Shown: positions 46,532 to 50,642 of the stretch, one piece after another
Layout of the letters: every line of letters starts with the position of its first letter
How positions within the stretch are numbered: position 1 is the stretch's first letter
Source of the DNA: Ancylobacter koreensis
GTDB taxonomy: Bacteria > Pseudomonadota > Alphaproteobacteria > Rhizobiales > Xanthobacteraceae
Direction of reading: 5' to 3'
Assembly (NCBI RefSeq): GCF_023016525.1
Contig: NZ_JALKCG010000001.1
Coordinates: 186,001-250,000 of the forward strand
DNA: 64,000 nucleotides
Translations under genes and position numbers: made by a program
Notes under the pieces: model-generated
The model's input: the letters and a program-made list of their open reading frames with translations, nothing else
Database searches by the model: none
What the model was told of the DNA's origin: nothing

Positions 46532-47005
46532 TCAGAAGCCGCTCTTCACCCGCAGATGGGTGTGCTCATGGGCGGCGCCCTGATTGTGCACGTGCCGGTC
46601 GGCCCCCGCGTCGACCGGCACGAGCGCGAGCGAACCGTGCATGACGCCGCGTTCGAGGAACAGCGCCTCGGCATAGGCGGAGACGTCGCCGACATGCCCG
46701 CGCATCAGCGTCACCTCCAGCGAGGTGGTGTGGTCGAGCGGCACCGAGAGCGCCGCCACCGTCTGGTCGTGGCGCTCCAGCCGGCCCTGCGGCACCCGTG
46801 CCGCCAGATTACGCACCGACTGGTCGATGGTGCAGCTGATCACCCCCAGGCAGTGCGCCGAGGGCGGCCCCTCCGGCCGCGCCGACAGCCCGCGCCGCAC
46901 CAGGTCGCGGATGACCTCCGAGCGGCTCGTCGCCCCGCTCGCCTCCATATGCGCATCGAGCCGCGCGGCGAAATCATCGTCTATGGCGATGGTGATGCGT
47001 TGCAT
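46532..47005 (-). CDS. nikR: NikR-family ribbon-helix-helix regulator with altered metal site
   Basis: Ni-responsive repressor family, controlling nickel uptake. The N-terminal RHH reads MQRITIAIDDDFAARLDAHMEASGATSRSEVIRDLVRRGL and aligns without gaps to E. coli NikR in the ACT domain (LEVTLMRGHVGDV, ERGVMHGSLALVP). All four E. coli nickel ligands are replaced: H76 to L, H87 to S, H89 to P and C95 to S. A His-rich tail (DRHVHNQGAAHEHTH) of about 20 residues extends beyond the usual C-terminus and may bind metal instead. R3 and T5 of the DNA-contacting strand are kept. It is divergent from nikK across a perfect NikR operator. Confidence 0.9.
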   Translation of the reverse strand: MQRITIAIDDDFAARLDAHMEASGATSRSEVIRDLVRRGLSARPEGPPSAHCLGVISCTIDQSVRNLAARVPQGRLERHDQTVAALSVPLDHTTSLEVTLMRGHVGDVSAYAEALFLERGVMHGSLALVPVDAGADRHVHNQGAAHEHTHLRVKSGF

Positions 47006-47132
47006 GGCGCCTCGCGTGGTGGCTGGACCCGACTGTAAGGCGCGAGCCTAGCACCCCACCCGCAGCGGTGAAAATCGCCGGTATTGGCGGCACGGCCTGC
47101 CGCTTTTCTCGCCTTGCGCGAGGTGTCGGCGG

Positions 47133-47168
47133 GTGCGTATGATTTTTATCAGATTATTTCATACGCAC
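47133..47168. promoter_or_regulatory. NikR operator (GTATGA-N16-TCATAC)
   Basis: GTGCGTATGA (47133-47142) and TCATACGCAC (47159-47168) are a perfect 10-bp inverted repeat. The inner GTATGA-N16-TCATAC is identical to the E. coli NikR consensus. It lies 17 bases before the nikK start and 128 bases before the nikR start, so it probably controls nikKMLQO and perhaps nikR. Confidence 0.92.
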
Positions 47169-47185: not shown

Positions 47186-48004
47186 GTGCTTGCTTTCCGT
47201 TCCCGCTTTTCGCGCACCGATGTCCTGCGCCGCATCCTGCTGAGCCTGCCGTTTGTAACGCTCGCGCTGCCGGCGCCAGCCTCCGCGCATTTCCAGGAGA
47301 TCGTGCCGTCCGCCGACGTGCTGCCCGACGGGGGCACGGTGACGCTCGATCTCGTCTTCACCCATCCGGTGGAAGGCGGCCCGGTCATGGACATGGCCAG
47401 GCCCGCACGCGTGGGCGTGCTGGCCGGCGGCAGGCAGACCGATCTGACCGACGCGCTCGCCGCGCGGCCGGTCGAGGGCAAGGGCGCCTGGACGCTGAGC
47501 CACACGCTTGCCGAGCCCGGCGCCGCCATCTTCTTCGTCGAGCCGCAGCCCTATTGGGAGCCGGCCGAGGGTAAGTTCATCGTTCATTACGCCAAGGTGG
47601 TGGTGGACGGCTTCGCCTCGGGCGAGGGCTGGGACGCGCGGGTCGGCCTGCCGGTCGAGATCCAGCCGCTCACCCGCCCCACCGGCCTGTGGACCGGCAA
47701 CCTGTTCACCGGCGTGGTGTTGAAGGACGGCAAGCCGGTGCCCTTCGCCGAGATCGAGATCGAGTTCATCAACGACGGCACGGTGACGCCGCCGAACGAC
47801 GCCTTCGTCACGCAGGTAATCAAGGCCGATGCAAACGGCACCTTCAGCTACGCCATGCCGCGCGCCGGCTGGTGGGGCTTCGCCGCGCTGGTAGAGGCCG
47901 ACAAGGAGGTCACCTCGCCGGAAGGCAAGCCGGTGCCGGTGGAACTCGGCGGCCTCATCTGGGTCAAGGCCACCGACATGAGCACGGCGACGAGCGGGAA
48001 ATAG
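47186..48004 (+). CDS. nikK: DUF4198-type periplasmic nickel transporter component NikK
   Basis: A 272-residue exported protein of the DUF4198 family, which occurs with ECF nickel importers and probably captures Ni in the periplasm. A signal peptide (LRRILLSLPFVTLALPAPASA) is followed by HFQEIVPSADVLPDGGTVTLDLVFTHP. The mature N-terminus would begin with a histidine. The GTG at 47186 is the start that leaves a complete signal peptide; the frame upstream crosses the operator and is not coding. It leads nikKMLQO. Confidence 0.88.
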   Translation: MLAFRSRFSRTDVLRRILLSLPFVTLALPAPASAHFQEIVPSADVLPDGGTVTLDLVFTHPVEGGPVMDMARPARVGVLAGGRQTDLTDALAARPVEGKGAWTLSHTLAEPGAAIFFVEPQPYWEPAEGKFIVHYAKVVVDGFASGEGWDARVGLPVEIQPLTRPTGLWTGNLFTGVVLKDGKPVPFAEIEIEFINDGTVTPPNDAFVTQVIKADANGTFSYAMPRAGWWGFAALVEADKEVTSPEGKPVPVELGGLIWVKATDMSTATSGK

Positions 48005-48022: not shown

Positions 48023-48637
48023 ATGGCGCATATCCCCGACGGCATCCTTTCCGCCCCGGTGCTGATCGGCGGCGGGCTTCTCGCGGCGGGCGGCGTGGCG
48101 CTGGCGGTGCGCGGGCTGGACGACCGGGCCATTCCGCGCACGGCGATCCTCTCCGCCGCCTTCTTCGCCGGCTCGCTGATCGCCGTGCCGATGGGGCCGA
48201 CCAGCATCCACCTTCTGCTGTCCGGGCTTATGGGCATCATGCTGGGCGCCGGGGCGTTCGCCGCCGTGCTGGTGGCGCTGGCGCTGCAGGTGCTGCTGTT
48301 CGGCTTCGGCGGCCTCACCACGCTCGGCGTCAACACGGTGAACATCGCGCTGCCGGGCGTGCTGTTCGGCATGGCGCTCGGCCCGGCCATATGCGAAGCG
48401 CGCGCCCCGGCCTTGCGGGCGCTGCTGGCCGGCGCGGTCGGCGCGCTGTCGGTGCTCGGCACGGGCGCGCTGGTGGCGCTGTCGCTGGCGCTCTCCGGTT
48501 CGGAATACACGCCGGTCGCCAGCGTGCTCGTCGCCACCTATCTGCCGCTGGCGCTGGGCGAGGCCTTCGTCACCGCCACCATCGTCGCCTTCCTCGCCCG
48601 CGTGCAGCCGGACGCGCTGCGTCCTGCCCTGCCATGA
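48023..48637 (+). CDS. nikM: ECF nickel transporter substrate-specific subunit NikM (CbiM family)
   Basis: Membrane S-component binding Ni (or Co). The 204-residue product has about six helices and starts MAHIPDGIL. Family members usually read MHIPDG; here an Ala precedes His, and Met removal would leave Ala-His as an N-terminal metal site (inferred). Conserved segments are AAFFAGSLIAVPMGPTSIHLLLSGLMG and GVNTVNIALPGVLFG. Nickel rather than cobalt is favoured by nikK, nikL and the NikR operator. Its stop overlaps nikL (ATGA). Confidence 0.92.
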   Translation: MAHIPDGILSAPVLIGGGLLAAGGVALAVRGLDDRAIPRTAILSAAFFAGSLIAVPMGPTSIHLLLSGLMGIMLGAGAFAAVLVALALQVLLFGFGGLTTLGVNTVNIALPGVLFGMALGPAICEARAPALRALLAGAVGALSVLGTGALVALSLALSGSEYTPVASVLVATYLPLALGEAFVTATIVAFLARVQPDALRPALP

Positions 48638-49185
48638 GGCGGCGGGCGGCGGCACTGCTGTTCCTGATCTTCGGCCTCGCCGTGCCGGCGCAGGCGCACA
48701 AGCTGAAGGTCTTCGCCACGGTCGAGGGTACATCCGTCGCCGGCTACGCCTTCTTCATCGGCGGCGGGCGCCCGCATGGCACGCCCTGGACGGCGAAGGA
48801 CTCCAGCGGTGAAATCGCCGGCGGGACGACCGACGCGGAGGGCCGCTTCGCCTTCACCCTGCCGCCCGCCGGTGCGGCGGGCGACGTCACCGTCACCGTC
48901 GACACCCGCGAGGGCCACATCGCCTCCGCCACCCTGTCCGCCGCCCGGCTTGGGGGAAGCGCGGCGCCGGCCACCGCCATGGCGGTCAGAACCGCCGCGC
49001 CGACTCCGGCGACAACAGACATCACAGCCGCCGTCGAGGCGGCGGTGCAGCGTCAGGTCGAGCCGTTGCTGGAGCGCATCGAGGAGCTCGATGCGCGGTT
49101 GCGCGTCACAGATATCGTCTCGGGAATCTTCCTCATCCTCGGCCTCGGCGGCATGGCGCTGTGGGCGCGCGGACGGCGGCGATGA
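48634..49185 (+). CDS. nikL: ECF nickel transporter small subunit NikL
   Basis: A 183-residue protein replacing the CbiN/NikN role. It has a signal-like N-terminus (AAALLFLIFGLAVPAQAHKLKVF), a periplasmic beta-rich domain (GEIAGGTTDAEGRFAFTLPPAG), a linker, a predicted coiled coil (VEAAVQRQVEPLLERIEELDARL) and one C-terminal membrane helix (VSGIFLILGLGGMALWARG). After cleavage it would begin with His-Lys. ATG 48634 overlaps the nikM stop; the long upstream frame is not coding. Confidence 0.87.
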   Translation: MRRRAAALLFLIFGLAVPAQAHKLKVFATVEGTSVAGYAFFIGGGRPHGTPWTAKDSSGEIAGGTTDAEGRFAFTLPPAGAAGDVTVTVDTREGHIASATLSAARLGGSAAPATAMAVRTAAPTPATTDITAAVEAAVQRQVEPLLERIEELDARLRVTDIVSGIFLILGLGGMALWARGRRR

Positions 49186-49910
49186 GGCGAGTGACGATGA
49201 TTCTCGCCCCCACCGATCTCCGGCTGCGCCTCGCCGCCACCTCCATCGCGGTCGCCTGCCTTTCGCAGTTGCGCAGCCCCGCCATCGCCGCCGCTGCGCT
49301 CGCCGTCGCGCTGGCGCTGTGGCTGGCGAGCCCGGCGCGCCGCCACGGACATCGCCTGCTGCATGTGGAAGGCTTCGTGCTGCTGCTGTTCCTCACCCTG
49401 CCCTTCACCGTGAAGGGCGCGCCGGTCTTCACGATCGGCCCGCTCGCCGCCAGCGCGGAAGGCTTCGCCCGCGCGGCGCTGGTGGCGCTGAAAATGTCCG
49501 CCGCGCTGCTGCTCGTCGCCGCCCTCCTCGGCGATCTCGAACCCGCACGTCTCGGCGGCGCGCTGCGCGGCCTGCGGGTGCCCGAGCCCGTCGTGCGGCT
49601 CTTCGTACTGACCGCCCGCTATGTCGGGCTGATCCGCGATGAGGCGCGCCGCCTGCGCGAGGCGATGCGGGTGCGCGCGTTCCGCCCACGCACCGACCGC
49701 CACACATGGCGCAGCTATGGCAACCTCATCGGCATGCTGCTGGTGCGCGCGCTCGACCGCGCCCGCCGCGTCGAGGAGGCGATGGCGTGCCGTGGCTATG
49801 ACGGACGCTTCCCCTATGCCCCCCTGCCCGCACCGTTGCTCCGCGACTGGGCCGGCTTCGCGCTGCTCGCGGGCGGCGGCATCCTCGCTCTGGCGATGGA
49901 TATCGCGTGA
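49182..49910 (+). CDS. nikQ: ECF transporter T component NikQ (CbiQ family)
   Basis: Energy-coupling membrane subunit linking NikM to the ATPase. The 242-residue product has several hydrophobic helices and two cytoplasmic coupling motifs (REAMRVRAF and EEAMACRGYDG), as in CbiQ. ATG 49182 overlaps the nikL stop; nikO starts 24 bases after its stop. Confidence 0.9.
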   Translation: MRRVTMILAPTDLRLRLAATSIAVACLSQLRSPAIAAAALAVALALWLASPARRHGHRLLHVEGFVLLLFLTLPFTVKGAPVFTIGPLAASAEGFARAALVALKMSAALLLVAALLGDLEPARLGGALRGLRVPEPVVRLFVLTARYVGLIRDEARRLREAMRVRAFRPRTDRHTWRSYGNLIGMLLVRALDRARRVEEAMACRGYDGRFPYAPLPAPLLRDWAGFALLAGGGILALAMDIA

Positions 49911-49934: not shown

Positions 49935-50642
49935 ATGACCGCGTTGCTCTCGCTTCAGGAGGTCGTCGTGTTGCGCGACGGCGCGGCGGTGCTGCGCGGC
50001 GCCAGCCTCTCGCTGGCGGCCGGCGAACGCCTCGCCATCGTCGGCCCGAACGGGGCGGGAAAGACCACGCTGCTGCGCACGCTGGTCGGGCTGGAGCGCG
50101 CCAGCGCCGGCGAGGTTCGGCTGTTCGGTACGCTCTGCCGCAGCGAGCGCGACTTCCGCCCCCAGCGCCCGCGCATCGGCTATCTCTTCCAGGACAGCGA
50201 CGACCAGCTCTTCTGCCCGACCGTGATCGAGGACGTCGCCTTCGGCCCGCTCAACACCGGCTGCACGGCCGAGGAGGCGCAGGCCCGCGCGCAGGCGGCG
50301 CTGGAGGGGCTGGGCATCGGCGCCCTCGCCGGACGTGTGAGCCACCGGCTGTCCGGCGGCGAAAAGCGGCTCGTCTGCCTCGCCGGCCTGCTCGCCATGC
50401 GCCCGGACGTGCTGATGCTCGACGAGCCGACCAATGGCGTCGACGCGGCCAATCGCGAGCGGCTGCGCGACGCCCTGCGGCGCTTCCCCGGCGCCCTGCT
50501 GCTGGTCTCGCACGATGACGGCTTCGTCGCCGAGCTGGCCACGCGGGCGATGCTCATGGACCAAGGCCGGCTGGCGCCCGCCGAGATCCACAACCACCCC
50601 CACCTGCACAGCCATCCGCATGTGCACGCCGCGCACGACTGA
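49935..50642 (+). CDS. nikO: ECF transporter ATPase NikO (CbiO family)
   Basis: ATPase of the nickel ECF importer, 235 residues: Walker A GPNGAGKTT, Q-loop LFQDSDDQLFCPTVIEDVAFGPLN (typical of CbiO), signature LSGGEKRLVCLAGLL and Walker B LMLDEPTNGVD. The C-terminus ends in a His-rich tail (HNHPHLHSHPHVHAAHD) with eight histidines, likely a nickel-holding tag. It is the last gene of nikKMLQO and converges with galM. Confidence 0.94.
   Translation: MTALLSLQEVVVLRDGAAVLRGASLSLAAGERLAIVGPNGAGKTTLLRTLVGLERASAGEVRLFGTLCRSERDFRPQRPRIGYLFQDSDDQLFCPTVIEDVAFGPLNTGCTAEEAQARAQAALEGLGIGALAGRVSHRLSGGEKRLVCLAGLLAMRPDVLMLDEPTNGVDAANRERLRDALRRFPGALLLVSHDDGFVAELATRAMLMDQGRLAPAEIHNHPHLHSHPHVHAAHD

Follow-up and report, generated by a model that had tools for sequence, protein, structure and literature searches.

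A clade of NikR homologues without the canonical nickel ligands, with an invariant histidine motif in the C-terminal tail

The window analysed here is a stretch of 64,000 nucleotides from Ancylobacter koreensis (contig NZ_JALKCG010000001.1, positions 186,001 to 250,000 of the forward strand). It holds a gene for a homologue of the regulator NikR and, divergent from it, a nickel importer operon in the order nikK-nikM-nikL-like-nikQ-nikO, with an exact NikR operator in between. The features are as follows, in window positions:

46532..47005, minus strand: nikR homologue without nickel ligands, ORF of 157 aa
46883..47005, minus strand: ribbon-helix-helix DNA-binding domain, residues 1-41; R3, T5, E30 and D34 retained
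46613..46855, minus strand: NikR_C / ACT-like domain without ligands, residues 51-131
46778..46780, minus strand: L76, at the position of E. coli H76 (by alignment to E. coli NikR, as for the next three)
46745..46747, minus strand: S87, at the position of E. coli H87
46739..46741, minus strand: P89, at the position of E. coli H89
46721..46723, minus strand: S95, at the position of E. coli C95
46535..46612, minus strand: C-terminal tail, residues 132-157 (26 aa); predicted to prolong strand 4 (121-138) and to add a strand (148-153)
47137..47164, no strand assigned: perfect NikR operator GTATGA-N16-TCATAC, exact, between nikR and nikK
47186..48004, plus strand: nikK (DUF4198), PF10670 at 206 bits; GTG start chosen in the analysis
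48023..48637, plus strand: nikM (CbiM family), PF01891 at 173 bits
48634..49185, plus strand: nikL-like ORF, named from operon position and conservation in relatives only
49161..49910, plus strand: nikQ (CbiQ family), PF02361 at 110.6 bits
49935..50642, plus strand: nikO (ABC ATPase) with a His-rich C-terminus, PF00005 at 110.2 bits

The palindrome GTATGA-N16-TCATAC is described as the operator of NikR (PMC7055735). A search for it that allows two mismatches is expected to give 0.30 chance matches in the window. No promoter or riboswitch was found in the nikR-nikK intergenic region; a terminator-like hairpin lies between nikR and the operator (47085-47102, plus strand). The C-terminus of NikO is likewise His-rich (HNHPHLHSHPHVHAAHD, 50560-50642). 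The preliminary description of this DNA had placed a NikR-family regulator at 46532-47005 on the minus strand, beside a perfect operator and a nickel importer. Coordinates, strand and neighbours are all correct.

The window protein has the two domains of NikR. It matches PF01402 (RHH_1) over residues 3-39 (36.3 bits, cut-off 20.5) and PF08753 (NikR_C) over residues 54-128 (57.3 bits, cut-off 22). Among NCBIfam models, PRK02967.1 scores above its cut-off (116 bits, cut-off 83), and TIGR02793 (113 bits, cut-off 175.45) and PRK04460.1 (69.9 bits, cut-off 105) score below theirs. Its best match in the PDB is E. coli NikR (1q5v), to which HMMER aligns it without gaps over residues 1-131. R3 and T5 at the start of the ribbon-helix-helix are kept, as had been noted, and so are E30 and D34, described as interdomain K+ or second-site residues (PMC7055735). 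NikR itself has been described as the sole metal-controlled ribbon-helix-helix regulator, with a His3Cys site conserved among homologues (PMC7055735, PMC9860126) and formed by H87, H89 and C95 plus H76 from the neighbouring subunit (PMC7055735). This square-planar site is absent from the window protein, in which L, S, P and S stand at positions 76, 87, 89 and 95. The substitutions, read by eye in the preliminary description, hold in the HMMER alignment, and the register at these positions is backed by structure too, because Foldseek superposes the predicted model on chains A-D of the nickel-bound domain 1q5y with an rmsd of 1.3-1.5 A over 80-82 columns; the TM score of the metal-binding-domain fold, normalised by target, is 0.89-0.91. 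The His-rich tail noticed earlier is present, and at about residues 132-157 exceeds the stretch that had been quoted. It has five histidines, at 138, 140, 146, 148 and 150. In the genome (4.06 Mb, 99.3% complete) this protein is the single match to PF08753, and at E 0.001 there is no full match to the large subunit of NiFe-hydrogenase.

The protein is not a solitary oddity, as the preliminary description had implied, but one member of a widespread clade. A sample of 397 genomes of the order gave NikR_C matches in 114 genomes at 117 places, all of which were extracted, and a scan of genome contigs gave 27 loci with full-length relatives that are 46-79% identical. After identical proteins were dropped the set came to 156, including the E. 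coli and P. horikoshii references, and 87 of these have all four ligands and are taken as canonical NikRs. A clade sharing the substitutions and the His tail, which the preliminary description had proposed to look for, comprises 50 distinct proteins, of which the order sample supplies 26 and further named records 24. The hosts among the named records are Ancylobacter, Kaistia, Methylobacterium/Methylorubrum, Breoghania, Rhodobacterales, Pseudoroseomonas and MAGs. All 50 lack H87, H89 and C95 and carry S or T at position 87, P at position 89 and S, A or T at position 95; the loss of all four ligands reported for the window protein extends to 41 of them, and the other 9 retain H76. Since these substitutions recur in 50 distinct proteins, a lone degenerate gene or a sequencing error is rejected. 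In a class-wide survey 18 of 385 genomes match the clade profile, and among the 15 examined of the 17 besides the window (L115 and L116, a fragment, being left out) none has a tailed ligand-less protein.

Trees were built without the four ligand columns and without the tail, with the clade represented by 29 non-redundant rows. The clade is monophyletic (SH-aLRT 99 in one tree, 100/100 in a careful tree) and nests in a fork with 98/96 support that also contains canonical NikRs. Residue 76 requires a minimum of three changes within the clade, and the ligands on the strand were therefore probably lost first and H76 later. NCBIfam assigns the clade to nickel-responsive NikR. The NikR family is already known; within it, the clade with a tail and no ligands is a variant for which searches of the open literature gave no earlier description that we recognised.

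C52, R75, H79, P89, H92, H123, H138, H140, H148 and H150 are invariant in all 50 proteins of the clade, E30 and D34 are present in all 50, and F157 is found in 48. R75 is present in all 29 non-redundant clade rows and in none of the 53 non-redundant canonical rows. Among the same canonical rows H79 occurs in 46, C52 in 44, H123 in 32 and H92 in 30. H62 runs the other way (53 of 53 canonical rows against 3 of 29 clade rows), as does position 60, which is Y or F in all 53 canonical rows and in none of the 29. Compared with E. coli-type NikR (PF01402 + PF08753; 1q5v, 2hza, 1q5y), the clade thus shares the fold, the ribbon-helix-helix with R3/T5, E30/D34, the operator and the nickel-importer neighbourhood, and differs in the absence of H76 (41/50), H87/H89/C95, Y60 and mostly H62, and in the presence of R75 and an invariant HxH...HxH motif in a tail predicted to form a hairpin.

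Tails rich in histidine are also common among the canonical NikRs of Alphaproteobacteria. Such proteins (for example L010, L011, L100) resemble the clade in a His-rich C-terminus after the ACT domain; unlike the clade, they have the four ligands and tails of 1-45 aa with variable spacing. In the clade the tail is 26 aa long in 21 of 29 rows (range 24-38), and its two HxH pairs, H138/H140 and H148/H150, are fixed. By sequence comparison, then, the special trait of the clade is the fixed motif and not His-richness as such; a loose form of the motif is matched by 4 of 87 canonical proteins. Because canonical NikRs share His-rich tails and a few match the loose motif, the tail may predate the loss of the ligands. 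Two AlphaFold2 monomer models bear on its structure. The model of the window protein, from an alignment with 39 clade rows, has a mean pLDDT of 86.4, with tail blocks of ten at 66, 64 and 83, so that confidence is modest (64-66) in two of the three; that of a divergent member (L062), from 52 rows including canonical ones, has a mean of 89.4 and tail blocks at 77, 82 and 85. In both, strand 4 is prolonged into the tail and a new strand follows (148-153 or 144-151), giving a beta-hairpin on which the two HxH pairs could face one another. Taken whole, the tail changes faster than the core does, with dN/dS at 0.29 and about 0.18 respectively over 387 non-independent pairs. This is the wrong direction for the idea that the tail is under stronger selection than the core, and that idea is rejected.

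The operator is retained with its targets over most of the clade. An exact copy lies at a nickel-importer locus in 36 of the 50 genomes, a copy with one mismatch in 6, and 8 are without a close site. Within the 50 fetched loci the exact operator occurs in 31 and the one-mismatch form in 5; none of the 89 other permutations of the half-site, arranged as the same palindrome, occurs in the same 629,139 bases. Of the 31 exact sites, 24 have nikR on one side and a nikK match on the other, and 7 are at loci with a NikA-like ORF (listed singly in L062, L064, L086 and L089; L063, L090 and L091 counted collectively). The spacer is poorly conserved, with a mean identity of 0.41 among the 31. Where nikR is distant from the importer, an exact operator stands upstream of the remote nikK in five genomes (G225, G130 and those of L036, L037 and L054), and in the genome of L058 a one-mismatch operator does so. 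Genome-wide searches of the 26 clade genomes from the order find the exact operator in 23, and the reversed control gives zero throughout. In G273, G197 and G084 a further exact operator stands in front of a NikA-like ORF; elsewhere additional copies fall within a coding ORF or adjoin a GntR-like gene, the latter at apparently the same place in three related genomes (L166, L167, L168). Of seven NikA-like ORFs compared with NCBIfam, six score best with nickel_nikA but stay far below its cut-off, so that the substrate of these importers is uncertain.

The eight genomes without a close site are those of Afifella (two mismatches), Pseudoroseomonas (three mismatches) and six Methylobacterium/Methylorubrum (L042, L043, L047, L053, L055, L057), in which genome-wide searches gave no exact operator and no nikK match. 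NicO genes were considered as alternative targets in these six and rejected, as the fetched loci have no operator-like site with up to three mismatches. In Afifella pfennigii (L051 / G189) a stop breaks the nikK match, there is no strong urease match and the operator has two mismatches, and its whole nickel module looks to be in decay.

In most hosts the clade protein is the only NikR. No other protein matches PF08753 in any of the 26 genomes from the order or in 24 of the 25 named ones (Afifella being in both), which makes it the sole match in 49 of 50 distinct genomes. A second, canonical NikR that does the work is thus rejected for the window genome and for 49 of the 50; the exception is Pseudoroseomonas wenyumeiae. 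A strong match to urease alpha is present in 49 of 50 distinct genomes (25 of the 26 from the order and 24 of the 25 named, Afifella excepted), although in G085 and G794 it is in pieces or partial. Complete matches to the large subunit of NiFe-hydrogenase occur in 4 of the 26 clade genomes of the order. Two Roseomonas-type organisms bear both kinds of NikR, and in them the operator of the clade type has drifted (two and three mismatches). In Roseomonas marmotae (L173, L174) the tailed ligand-less NikR shares one plasmid with nikKMLQO and urease-linked genes, the canonical NikR is with nikABCDE on a separate plasmid, and the operators of the two kinds differ, the exact one standing at the canonical nikR beside nikABCDE. 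Drift in these two related cases is possibly a form of insulation.

Other NikR-like proteins of the set have altered sites. The f28 group (L061, L068, L073, L077, L084, L085, L087) is like the clade in H89->P and in the absence of H76, H87 and C95, and unlike it in having no His tail and an exact operator in 0 of 7 genomes; degraded versions of the operator are seen upstream of nikK at some of its loci. It forms a separate clade with 100/93 support. An independent origin is not accepted all the same: the tree separates the two groups, but the one-clade test does not reject a single origin (p-AU 0.33 on the careful tree; on a quick tree p-AU was 0.80, the tree held to one clade being even the better one). 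As this group has neither the ligands nor a tail, loss of the ligands does not require compensation by a tail, and with His-rich tails also present in canonical NikRs, the strict rule that the tail was gained as payment for the ligands is rejected. Six NikR-like proteins (L092-L094, L157-L159) have H87 and H89, but their residue 76 is R or A and their residue 95 is T; about 100 bp upstream of two of them (L092, L094) lies a palindrome resembling GTATTACGAT...TCGTAATAC. Five NikRs of 261-267 aa (L059, L095, L160-L162) combine a very long, His-rich tail with ligands that are changed in part (HQHC, HQYC, QRPC). Nur, InrS and RcnR, the folds of which are unrelated to NikR, also control nickel homeostasis. 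Nur has an all-His square-planar site (PMC7055735).

With this context, the clade protein is very probably functional and controls nickel import from the standard operator. It probably functions like NikR, although by the nickel site that defines NikR it falls outside that family. For the window protein the preliminary description had left three options, namely nickel sensing through the tail, another signal, or constitutive repression. Sequences and models together favour the tail, because four tail histidines are invariant in 50 of 50 proteins and two models form the hairpin; constitutive repression is less likely, because exact operators are persistently paired with nickel importers. We put sensing of a metal through the tail at about an even chance.

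The mechanism may be pictured as follows. The internal His3Cys site would have been taken apart at the base of the clade, H87, H89, C95 and mostly H62 going first, with H76 lost later and repeatedly. Metal sensing would have shifted to the C-terminal beta-hairpin and its HxH pairs, possibly joined by H79, H92 and H123, which the clade made invariant. Nickel, or another imported metal, on the hairpin would order the tetramer so that it binds the operator, and the bound tetramer would shut off nikKMLQO or a NikA-type importer. Beyond what the sequences establish (ligand loss, a tail conserved across the clade, the operator at importers, a sole NikR copy), we infer that the tail binds metal, that this metal is nickel, that its binding drives DNA binding and that the effect is repression.

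The clearest challenge comes from R75, found in every clade row and in no canonical one, and from the loss of Y60 and H62 along with the ligands. Together with a pocket of S87, P89 and S95, R75 might replace nickel as the link within the tetramer, making the protein a metal-independent repressor or attenuator that binds its operator without metal and sets only a basal level, the tail being a side trait. We consider this unlikely: a permanently closed promoter gives little reason for exact half-sites around so variable a spacer, when NikR operators are described as diverging between lineages (PMC545781), and little reason for four invariant tail histidines. The fixed residues of the core could point to something else, that it has rebuilt a subunit-interface site from H79, H92 and H123 (and C52) and that the tail only buffers or delivers metal. 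H92 and H123 are variable in canonical NikRs and invariant here, but each of the four residues is also present in many canonical NikRs, and the spacing of the tail with V153 and F157 looks structural, unlike a loose His buffer, so this reading seems somewhat less probable still.

The signal, too, could have changed while the nickel importer stayed under control, to cobalt, another metal or a non-metal, given that the square-planar site said to confer nickel selectivity (PMC7055735) is gone. Targets that are nickel importers of two unrelated kinds, in hosts that nearly always encode urease, make such a change improbable. Decay into a non-functional regulator would fit Afifella, with its broken nikK, lack of a strong urease match and drifted operator, yet this is one genome of 50, and a core dN/dS of about 0.18, full-length proteins and the exact operators elsewhere leave very little room for it. 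The reading we prefer, at roughly even probability, is a NikR-derived import regulator with its canonical site dismantled and its sensing moved, most likely, to the His hairpin.

Stated for the family as a whole, and more tentatively, a metalloregulator would have lost its buried nickel site at the tetramer interface and relocated sensing to an appended His-bearing beta-hairpin, while retaining operator, targets and fold. If true, the clade would be a natural second solution for metal control of a ribbon-helix-helix protein, and a clean test of how a sensor may switch its sensing site while retaining its regulon. It also counsels caution, in that annotation as NikR does not imply the known nickel site.
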